Source of the DNA: Deltaproteobacteria bacterium
GTDB lineage: Bacteria > Desulfobacterota > Binatia > DP-6
Assembly: GCA_005888095.1 (NCBI GenBank)
Contig: VBKF01000109.1
Span: 1 to 54,049 of the forward strand
DNA: 54,049 bases
Direction of reading: 5' to 3'
Each line of letters starts with the position of its first letter. The stretch's first letter is position 1. Below the pieces are notes generated by a model. The model was not told the DNA's origin. It was given only the letters and a program-made list of their open reading frames with translations, and ran no database searches. The translations under genes were made by a program, and so were the position numbers. Of this stretch, positions 35,824-37,700 are shown piece after piece.

Positions 35824-35985
35824 ATGAAAGAACTTCACTTGGATGTCGAGGAGCTGGAAGAGCGCATCGCGCCAAGCCTGGTCGGCGTGAACCCACCCGG
35901 CCAGCTCGGTGCGGGCAAGCCAGGCCCGCCGCCCGGGCAGCTCGGTCAGGGCCAACCGGGTCCGCCGCCCGGCCACAGAGGGTGA
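35824..35985 (+). CDS. Small LEERIAP-leader peptide with collagen-like repeats
   Basis: A 53-residue protein. The N-terminus MKELHLDVEELEERIAPSLV resembles the 'VExLExRxaPS/LLS' leader found on surface proteins of some planctomycete-like and other large-genome bacteria; this comparison is from memory. After it come two 12-residue units, GQLGAGKPGPPP and GQLGQGQPGPPP, then GHRG, giving a Pro/Gly-rich collagen-like tail. The ribosome site GGAGGAAG is strong and starts 5 nt upstream of the AGC before ATG 35824. Two Cys-rich exported protein genes follow on the same strand after 45 bp, and they are probably co-transcribed. The function is unknown; a matrix or surface role is inference. Confidence 0.7.
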   Translation: MKELHLDVEELEERIAPSLVGVNPPGQLGAGKPGPPPGQLGQGQPGPPPGHRG

Positions 35986-36030
35986 GGTCTCCTCGGTAGG
36001 CATGTTGCACGACCCGCACGAGGAGGAGCC

Positions 36031-36342
36031 ATGAGATTCGTGCAGAGAGTGGTTTACGTCCTGGCATGCGCCGCATCGATCGGCGGGATCGTCGTCCCGG
36101 TCCGAAACGCCGGCGCCCAGACCCTCCCGCCCTCCGCAGCCTGTGTTGCGGCCTGCGCCCAAGGAATCGGGAGCTGCGTCACCGCGGCGGCGGCGACGCT
36201 CCACGGGTGCGTTGCGGCCTGTACGACGAATCGCCCTGCCTGCGTGCAAGCGTGCGCCGCGGCGCAGACCGCCGCAGTGTCCGCGTGCAGGGCGGCCTTC
36301 GACAGCTGCGCGGCGGCCTGCCCTTCGATGGAGGAGTCATGA
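36031..36342 (+). CDS. Exported 10-cysteine helical-hairpin protein (copy 1)
   Basis: A 103-residue secreted protein with a signal peptide of about 29 residues ending in RNAGAQ. The mature part has ten cysteines with spacing 3-6-10-3-6-3-10-6-3 (residues between successive Cys), an exact mirror pattern around the centre. Taking the first Cys as 0, they lie at 0, 4, 11, 22, 26 and 33, 37, 48, 55, 59, so each outer pair sums to 59. The rest is mostly Ala, Ser, Val and Thr, favouring helices. I infer an antiparallel hairpin with five stacked disulfides. The ribosome site GAGGAGG is excellent. The stop overlaps the paralogue start (ATGA). The function is unknown. Confidence 0.82.
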   Translation: MRFVQRVVYVLACAASIGGIVVPVRNAGAQTLPPSAACVAACAQGIGSCVTAAAATLHGCVAACTTNRPACVQACAAAQTAAVSACRAAFDSCAAACPSMEES

Positions 36343-36647
36343 GATCCCTGAAGCGATTGCTGTGTGTTCTGACGTGCGCCGCATCGATCGGCGGGACGGT
36401 CGTCCTCGCCCGAGACGCCGGCGCGCAGACCCCCCCCGGGGCCTGTGTTGCGGCTTGCGCCCACGGAATCGGGAGCTGCGTCAGCACGGCCGCGGACGCG
36501 CTCCACGACTGTATGGCGGGCTGTAAGATCAATCATGGGACCAAGCGCGCCACCTGCGTGCAGGCTTGCGCCGCGGCGCACAAGGCGGCGGTATCCGCGT
36601 GCACCGCAGCCTTCAAGAGCTGCGTGGCGGCCTGCCCCACGACCTGA
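36339..36647 (+). CDS. Exported 10-cysteine helical-hairpin protein (copy 2)
   Basis: A 102-residue tandem paralogue of the preceding gene, with the same signal sequence pattern (LTCAASIGGTVVLARDAGAQ). Its cysteine spacing is 3-6-10-3-10-3-10-6-3, again exactly symmetric. Only the central turn is four residues longer (KINHGTKRAT). All other spacings are conserved, including Ala at the two positions where an eleven-residue repeat would place a sixth pair. DNA similarity across the signal region is high, so the duplication looks recent. SD GGAGG lies inside the end of copy 1. A terminator hairpin follows 28 bp after the stop. Confidence 0.82.
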   Translation: MRSLKRLLCVLTCAASIGGTVVLARDAGAQTPPGACVAACAHGIGSCVSTAADALHDCMAGCKINHGTKRATCVQACAAAHKAAVSACTAAFKSCVAACPTT

Positions 36648-36845: not shown

Positions 36846-36926
36846 TCACTGAGGTAGCGACCCCGCCCGAAGAGCTCCGAGTCTGTGAGACTCGCGAAGC
36901 ACAACAACCAACAAGGGAGGGTCCTC

Positions 36927-37700
36927 ATGTACAGAAGGCTGTGTGAGATCGCAGGCGCGGCTACGGTCGTCGCCATGGTCGCCGGATCGGCCAGCGGCGC
37001 GGCGAGCGTCAGCACGACCGTGACCATTCCGGCGTCGGTCGCCGCGTCGGTCACGGCGGACGGGTGCACGAACAACCCCGGGCCGTTCATCACGCTCTCC
37101 GGAGAGCTGGCGCTCGGGGGAATCACCGCGCGGCTGACCTTCCAGAACAACGTCAAGGGAACCCATACCCACACCGAAGACGTGACCACGGACGTCGTCA
37201 TCATCCCTGCGGGCGAGAAGATCACCTTTGCGAAGCAGCCGCCGCAGGGCGGCGTCGGCGGCAACCCGTTCATCTCCATCCAGTTCACCGATGGAGCGGG
37301 AAACCCCATCTCCGACGAGACCTTCCTCGGCCGGTGCGTGCAGGGCCTCGAGCCTGCCTCCGCCGCCATCTCGCTGCCCGCGGAGGCGAGCGTCGACGTC
37401 ACGACGGGCTCGTGCGACAACAGCCCGGGCCCCTTCATCACGCTCTCGGGAGAGATCGCGCTCGCGGGCATCAACGCGCGGCTGATCTTCCGGAACAACG
37501 TGAAGGGGACCCACACGCACACCGAGGACGTGACGGCGGATGTCGTCATCCTCCCCGAGGGCGAGACCATCCGGTTTGCGAAGCAGCCGCCCCTGGGCGG
37601 GGTCGGAGGCAACCCGCGCATCTCCATCCAGTTCCTCGACGGGAGCGGGAACCCGCTGGGCGCTCCGATCTTCCTCGGCCGGTGCGTCCAGCTGAATTAG
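36927..37700 (+). CDS. Exported protein made of two tandem ~100-residue modules, unknown family
   Basis: A 257-residue secreted protein. The signal peptide is about residues 1-25 (IAGAATVVAMVAGSASGAAS). Two copies of one module follow, about 40-143 and 147-257. Each contains NPGPFITLSGE or SPGPFITLSGE, an NNVKGTHTHTEDVT block, FAKQPP-GGVGGNP, ISIQF and FLGRCVQ, with one Cys near the start and one near the end that could close each module. The strands look beta-rich. I know no family with the HTHTED block; the His and Asp/Glu could bind metal. The ribosome site AAGGGAGG is strong. It stands alone between the terminator hairpin and a short lipoprotein gene. Confidence 0.85.
   Translation: MYRRLCEIAGAATVVAMVAGSASGAASVSTTVTIPASVAASVTADGCTNNPGPFITLSGELALGGITARLTFQNNVKGTHTHTEDVTTDVVIIPAGEKITFAKQPPQGGVGGNPFISIQFTDGAGNPISDETFLGRCVQGLEPASAAISLPAEASVDVTTGSCDNSPGPFITLSGEIALAGINARLIFRNNVKGTHTHTEDVTADVVILPEGETIRFAKQPPLGGVGGNPRISIQFLDGSGNPLGAPIFLGRCVQLN

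Follow-up and report, generated by a model that had tools for sequence, protein, structure and literature searches.

A tandem pair of exported proteins with palindromic cysteines points to a modular family of predicted disulfide-ladder helical hairpins

Why would two adjacent bacterial genes encode small exported proteins whose ten cysteines are arranged as an exact mirror image? The genes lie in the window (the whole 54,049-nucleotide stretch of deltaproteobacterial contig VBKF01000109.1 analyzed here), where they are called copy 1 and copy 2 (Table 1). The answer that we favor, and hold to be reasonably probable as a whole, is that the products are modular exported hairpins of two helices, each held by a ladder of disulfides and acting as a structural or spacer element; the disulfides are deduced, and the role is suggested more faintly.

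Table 1. Positions in the window of the tandem genes, their arms and turns, and adjoining features.
Feature	Position	Strand	Basis
Shine-Dalgarno-like GAGGAGGAG, ahead of copy 1	36020..36028	+	direct reading
Copy 1, 103-aa exported protein	36031..36342	+	ORF; signal peptide by eye
Copy 1 signal peptide; mature part	~36031-36120; ~36121-36339	+	by eye
Copy 1 arm 1: Cys slots 0, 4, 11, 22, 26; slot 15 Ala	36142..36222	+	predicted helix 4-32 (mature numbering)
Copy 1 turn, 6 residues	36223..36240	+	Cys spacing and structure prediction
Copy 1 arm 2: Cys slots 0, 4, 15, 22, 26; slot 11 Ala	36241..36321	+	predicted helix 38-65 (mature numbering)
Shine-Dalgarno-like GGAGGAG for copy 2, within 3' end of copy 1	36330..36336	+	direct reading
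Copy 2, 102-aa exported paralogue of copy 1	36339..36647	+	ORF; sequence comparison
Copy 2 arm 1	36444..36524	+	Cys spacing
Copy 2 turn, 10 residues (copy 1 turn + 4)	36525..36554	+	Cys spacing, alignment
Copy 2 arm 2	36555..36635	+	Cys spacing
Neighbor gene, 271 aa, outside ladder	36885..37700	+	adjoins pair also in same-genus genome

Both copies are well supported as genuine coding genes. They overlap by ATGA, each is preceded by a purine-rich ribosome-binding sequence, and copy 2 matches residues 1-99 of copy 1 at 69% identity. The third codon position is richest in GC in the two forward frames (0.82, 0.83) and not in the antisense frame. The tandem pair is present in a same-genus genome (G002), where copy 1 is 76% identical and retains 10/10 Cys; across the same-genus pairs, 24-36% of residues differ with all ten Cys unchanged. 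Copy 1 and its same-genus counterpart are separated by a dN of 0.16 and a dS of 0.36, and dN is below dS in 6/6 pairs of the four sequences (the window copies and the G002 copies). Gene order is kept in G002: a DUF1329 protein (33 matching residues), copy 1, copy 2, the 271-aa gene (83% identical) and MetH (56 residues). The two halves of the 271-aa protein resemble each other, and its six weak Pfam rows include none above the cut-off. A small frame upstream of copy 1 (35824-35985) reads LDVEELEERIAPSL followed by a Pro/Gly-rich repeat tail; it has no Pfam match and is absent at E≤1e-3 around the pair in G002. By eye, the copy 1 signal peptide has a basic start, a hydrophobic stretch and an AGA-Q end; the signal peptides carry one Cys in copy 1 and two in copy 2, all outside the mirror pattern. 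Lipoprotein export was considered and rejected, the sole lipobox-like Cys, judged by eye, being residue 13, near the start of the hydrophobic stretch.

Numbered from the first mature Cys as 0, the cysteines of copy 1 fall at 0, 4, 11, 22, 26/33, 37, 48, 55, 59, each outer-to-inner pair summing to 59, and those of copy 2 at 0, 4, 11, 22, 26/37, 41, 52, 59, 63, with a mirror sum of 63; four central residues are the sole length change of copy 2 relative to copy 1 in the Cys region. The sequence-only reading had reported these positions and sums, the central insertion as the only change and the 11-residue register of the arm slots; re-reading of the translations bears out the first exactly in both copies, the second within the Cys region, and the third. 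Its statement that the vacant slot is Ala holds for the window, where each copy has Ala at both slot 15 and slot 11', but only in part for relatives, which often have Val at slot 15 (A 24, V 12 in 48 modules) and Gly or Ser at slot 11' (A 18, G 10, S 9). An internal direct duplication of the arms was rejected because Cys occupies slot 11 in arm 1 and slot 15 in arm 2, and a direct repeat would not yield a palindrome. The window contains a six-Cys part of the copy 1 pattern once, and 0/100 shuffles contain it; when a protein's own gaps are reordered, an equally good palindrome arises in 2/300 shuffles of copy 1 and in 0/300 of the frame holding copy 2. Taken in one protein alone, the palindrome is thus only mildly improbable (about p 0.01), and the weight of the mirror rule consequently rests on relatives.

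Relatives were sought with a profile of 16 ten-Cys modules and a second profile of 12 aligned twelve-Cys modules, matches being accepted at E≤1e-4. A search across bacterial genomes had been proposed as a check, and the pattern does recur: the ten-Cys profile matches 33/148 genomes of the window's class, the twelve-Cys profile 30/148, and the two together 43/148 (our own count, in which near-threshold matches were not all inspected). The window's own genome has one further member, on another contig. Sampling 395 genomes of the phylum gives 7 matching ones, each from the window's class, and sampling 282 from the phylum to which a Polyangium genome belongs gives 4. Among the latter, L196 carries a long hairpin of inexact symmetry followed by an exact ten-Cys module, L198 resembles it with an offset of one, and L199 has an exact 8-Cys hairpin. 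A 616-aa frame of the same sample (L197) holds about eight acidic six-Cys mirror hairpins, mostly 4,11,14,11,4, which may be a distant form of the family or have arisen by convergence. Thirteen other genomes give 0/13 matches, and a tblastn search of plasmids with one relative's module gives none. Samples from two other phyla, centered on a Blastocatellia locus (0/297) and a Paraburkholderia locus (0/299), had at most 21 candidates scored per genome, so these absences are weak. A scan of genome contigs for an 8-Cys pattern returned at least 118 stretches and is no measure of family spread; many stretches that failed its filter (at most 15 Cys, no stop) are of poly-Cys low complexity. Among the stretches listed, seven matches in seven loci passed: L063, L139 and L163 are family members, apparently the same as profile-search contigs G080:C24, G012:C180 and G002:C456, and L055, L072, L111 and L127 are Cys-rich frames unrelated to the family.

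Most relatives are longer and contain several modules, Thr-rich stretches occurring in some, and a hairpin carries from 6 to about 20 Cys. In L048, L182 and L045 an 8-Cys hairpin, in which the 11/15' pair is absent, comes first, ahead of five, four and three 12-Cys hairpins, respectively; these proteins are natural ladder concatemers. Ten multi-module relatives (L008, L014, L027, L032, L034, L035, L038, L040, L163, L175) share a C-terminal tail, GSxSxAF(L/V/I/F), preceded in some by a Gly-rich stretch; the tail is possibly a sorting or attachment signal and is absent from both window copies. Other Cys-rich frames of the window's genus, in L004 and on the minus strand of L163, contain six-Cys mirror units (4,11,7,11,4), which fall below the eight-Cys limit of the palindrome count given next.

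Across the family, 634/809 Cys in 35 proteins lie within exact palindromes of at least 8 Cys, with 35.9 expected from gap shuffles; the 35 remain from 41 frames, not each confirmed as a gene, after removal of repeated gap lists and of proteins with more than 60 Cys (L048 is thereby missing). The commonest gap patterns are 4,7,11,4|n|4,11,7,4, with a middle gap n of 7 to 14, and 4,7,11,4,11|9|11,4,11,7,4; others are 4,18,4|9|4,18,4, 4,7,11|18 or 21|11,7,4, and long forms, e.g., 4,7,15,7,4,7,4,7,4|9| and its mirror. All fit one 11-residue register. In 19 twelve-Cys modules each arm is longer by one 11-residue step, and in L033 and L042 a four-residue stutter has the same placement in both arms. 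The aligned modules, 16 with ten and 12 with twelve Cys, have no invariant position other than Cys. Hairpins of other lengths mostly keep the symmetry, with exceptions: about a dozen relatives are off by one or asymmetric (e.g., L028, L036, L037, L040, L044, L172, L181, L183, L184 and L190, and in the other phylum L196 and L198), and L034 and L035 have an insert in one arm only. Under a looser rule, whose counts include non-coding frames, 1036/2470 Cys are palindromic in family loci (shuffles 58.7) vs 104/1898 in non-family loci (shuffles 31.4). Unrelated Cys-rich frames therefore also beat their own shuffles, but far less than family loci do; among the 25 of 125 control regions listed, two score (52/104 Cys), and these are strictly periodic or near-periodic repeats. 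A lenient hairpin count, made on frames not each confirmed as genes with repeated gap lists or more than 70 Cys removed, pairs 1052/1186 Cys and leaves 17 unpaired inside hairpins, with 615 paired by shuffling; it is weaker than the exact count and is not relied on.

If the cysteines are bonded across the mirror, they would be expected to be lost in pairs. After removal of duplicates and of matches gapped at a Cys column (150 reduced to 95), all ten Cys are present in 81/95 full-length unique matches to the ten-Cys profile, which, being built from ten-Cys modules, is biased toward complete ones. In the other 14/95 there are 24 missing cells, and for 18/24 the mirror partner is missing too. Independent variation of cysteines in homologues had been named beforehand as a result that would refute the predicted ladder; instead, 9/14 deviating modules have lost exact mirror pairs, nine in all, compared to a mean of 0.49 and a maximum of 4 in column shuffles (n=1000), and five show unpaired loss. 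Rung 3 is lost in L048, L168, L182, L045 and L199, rung 4 in L043 and L167, and rung 5 in L032 and L017. The five unpaired cases (L170, L171, L177, L180, L029) appear to be longer hairpins matched in the wrong register. A rerun with more loci (143 matches reduced to 91) again gives 9 co-lost pairs, vs 0.43 by shuffling (maximum 3); L170 and L177 account for two more unpaired cells. The twelve-Cys model (97 reduced to 52) gives 2 co-lost pairs vs 0.16 by shuffling (maximum 2), and 4 further unpaired missing cells in three of its five deviating matches (L231, L236, L024); the L024 match is in the wrong register, spanning the signal peptide. Most unpaired losses may be such wrong-register matches. 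Since some co-losses sit in related proteins, they perhaps represent about five independent events, not eleven.

The two-helix hairpin proposed from the sequence agrees with structure prediction. For mature copy 1, AlphaFold2 (an alignment of 5 rows) predicts the two helices listed in Table 1, at a mean pLDDT of 88.8; for the L163 protein, with a ten-Cys and a twelve-Cys module and no alignment beyond its own row, it predicts two hairpins (pLDDT 82; helices 2-29, 35-62, 68-106 and 112-153). With alignments this shallow, the predicted turn centers (35, 32 and 109) lie near the Cys mirror centers (37.5, 32.5 and 110.5), the offsets being 2.5 residues in copy 1 and 0.5 and 1.5 in the two L163 hairpins. 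The geometry of the Cys pairs was taken from ideal helices, not from AlphaFold2 coordinates: all five mirror pairs reach Cb-Cb distances of 3.3-4.6 Å and Ca-Ca distances of 4.4-6.8 Å simultaneously, at axis separations of 7.0-9.5 Å. Disulfide geometry is lost in the same ideal helices when a heptad twist is imposed or the pairing is moved along by one Cys; an unmirrored control pairing meets the Cb limit and fails solely by a Ca-Ca distance of 3.0 Å at the middle pair. The shape as such is common. Foldseek against the PDB gives a best match of E 2.8, and a VIA structural search returns generic tight hairpins, e.g., ATP synthase c-subunits with Z up to 8.6, which may reflect only a common arrangement; absence from the VIA lists does not exclude a family. 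Antifreeze-like Ala helices, represented by 4ke2 in the structure list, were rejected since no Thr is seen every 11 residues.

The mirror rule, the pairwise conservation, the hairpin prediction, the ideal-helix fit and an oxidase gene in the same genome are the observations from which we infer cross-helix disulfides. Each mature protein would form one antiparallel, Ala-rich two-helix hairpin whose cysteines, set on an 11-residue register, face inward along both helices, Cys i of helix 1 standing opposite Cys S-i of helix 2. Oxidation after export would then give five cross-helix disulfides, in copy 1 expected as 0-59, 4-55, 11-48, 22-37 and 26-33, and this ladder would take the place of a hydrophobic core. 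The window's genome encodes a VKOR domain scoring over the cut-off, in one 415-aa frame shared with a CPHC part that looks DsbA-like by eye; the product could be a fitting oxidase for the ladder. The family would have diversified by repetition of hairpins and by gain or removal of rungs in both arms together. A scaffold is favored over a catalyst because the 16 + 12 aligned modules have no fixed non-Cys position, and a structural role is favored because, in addition, the neighbor genes of eight family loci, inspected by eye, have nothing obvious in common that would point to a role. The proteins may thus serve as very stable, protease-resistant structural elements, modular rods or spacers, of the cell surface or matrix. 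A bolder version, a long shot in our estimate, is that a palindromic code of 11-residue steps sets hairpin length and rungs and that the stacked cystines form a redox or metal reservoir at the surface.

The proposed fold takes known disulfide-stapled helical hairpins further, with ladders that range from three to about ten rungs in modular bacterial proteins; the family itself is apparently undescribed. Among the open-access papers listed, covered by titles and abstract openings with subscription papers mostly outside, none describes a bacterial family of this kind. The assertion that no described family has this pattern holds insofar as Pfam, NCBIfam and the PDB offer no convincing match, but disulfide arrays along a helix-helix interface are described for the vanabin of sea squirts (PMC13348028), the nearest known architecture. 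The likeness is that of a Cys-rich helical protein, and the window family is bacterial. Copies 1 and 2 have one Pfam row each, both far below the cut-off. Vanabin-2 (PF11437) is the row of copy 2, with 8.1 bits and E=4 vs a 25-bit cut-off; it is absent from the rows of copy 1 at E≤10 and of the 16 modules at E≤1. In structural alignment, Vanabin2 (1vfi) ranks 46 among generic hairpins (Z 5.4, rmsd 5.1, 69 aligned). The 16 modules hit five Pfam families with one member each (best E 0.0034, GA_3) and the 12 twelve-Cys modules three, again with one member each (best E 0.0056, Lipoprotein_15), none convincing; three relatives have no Pfam row at E≤1, and the 16 modules have no NCBIfam match. Profile searches of the PDB give only weak matches, for the ten-Cys profile kappa-KTx (E 0.077), Tim (0.45) and a salivary protein (3.3), and for the twelve-Cys profile one chain at E 7.8.

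Other hairpin and Cys-lined proteins share single elements with the modules. Alpha-hairpinins and kappa-KTx peptides have a helix-loop-helix motif with CX3C-Xn-CX3C, and the inner four Cys of the module, in a predicted hairpin, have the same form. These peptides are eukaryotic and have two disulfides. Their Cys number four, as described for alpha-hairpinins (PMC11591084), whereas the mature window chains have ten Cys. The kappa-KTx match spans profile positions 21-42 and is not significant as a sequence relationship. We know of no 11-residue ladder or multi-module bacterial form among these peptides. In CHCH proteins, disulfides between Cys motifs are described as linking two helices (PMC12114033), a likeness to the window hairpin. 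The small Tim proteins share this arrangement. These twin CX3C or CX9C hairpins are mitochondrial, with two disulfides, and the window module has five Cys per arm in an 11-residue register. Copper storage proteins (Csp), some of which are exported, likewise have helices lined with Cys. Csp1/Csp3, however, are described as four-helix bundles whose thiols bind Cu(I) (PMC9484137), unlike the predicted two-helix hairpin, and no such Pfam row is found for copies 1-2 (E≤10) or for the 16 + 12 modules (E≤1).

How far do these resemblances favor another reading? That the oxidized disulfides are a redox-active store or a metal-reducing surface in the manner of vanabins, not a passive scaffold, is unlikely in our view: the known helix-interface arrays, PF11437 as the sole Pfam row of copy 2 and the alignment of 1vfi speak for it, yet both matches are at noise level, the aligned modules have no conserved non-Cys cluster, and no redox partner was noticed by eye beside the eight family loci. 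If the cysteines stayed reduced, the helix interface might instead be a site for soft metals (Cu(I), Hg, Ag), with the mirror reflecting paired ligands. Many helix-borne Cys in an exported protein, and the Cu(I) chemistry of Csp bundles, would fit; pairwise presence and loss, however, would follow from disulfides but need not hold for ligands, a VKOR domain beside a DsbA-like part is encoded in the genome, and Csp-type rows are missing from the Pfam results, so that we regard this reading as improbable.

Small proteins in tandem, with an inner CX3C-loop-CX3C that gives the best PDB profile match, could also be secreted antimicrobial or toxin-like hairpins in the manner of alpha-hairpinins and kappa-KTx peptides, but ten Cys in place of four, window copies that by eye are weakly charged and Ala-rich, relatives that are mostly longer and multi-module, some with Thr-rich stretches, and the lack of any immunity-like neighbor noticed at the loci looked over make this quite improbable. 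As for a chance or compositional artefact of Ala/Cys-rich frames in GC-rich DNA, long spurious frames do occur, e.g., a 208-aa antisense frame over both genes; this explanation, to which practically no weight can be given, is already contradicted by the ten Cys kept in the diverged same-genus pair, by the dN/dS and codon-position-3 data, and by the mirror rule across genera and in the sample from another phylum.

Under the disulfide-ladder reading, it is the covalent rungs that appear to fix the hairpin's register, in place of a hydrophobic core, and evolution appears to edit it symmetrically. If so, disulfide pairing would be predictable from sequence alone, and small proteins of great stability could readily be built on the hairpin unit. 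The two window copies would then belong to an as yet unnamed exported family of uncultured bacteria, testable with one recombinant protein.
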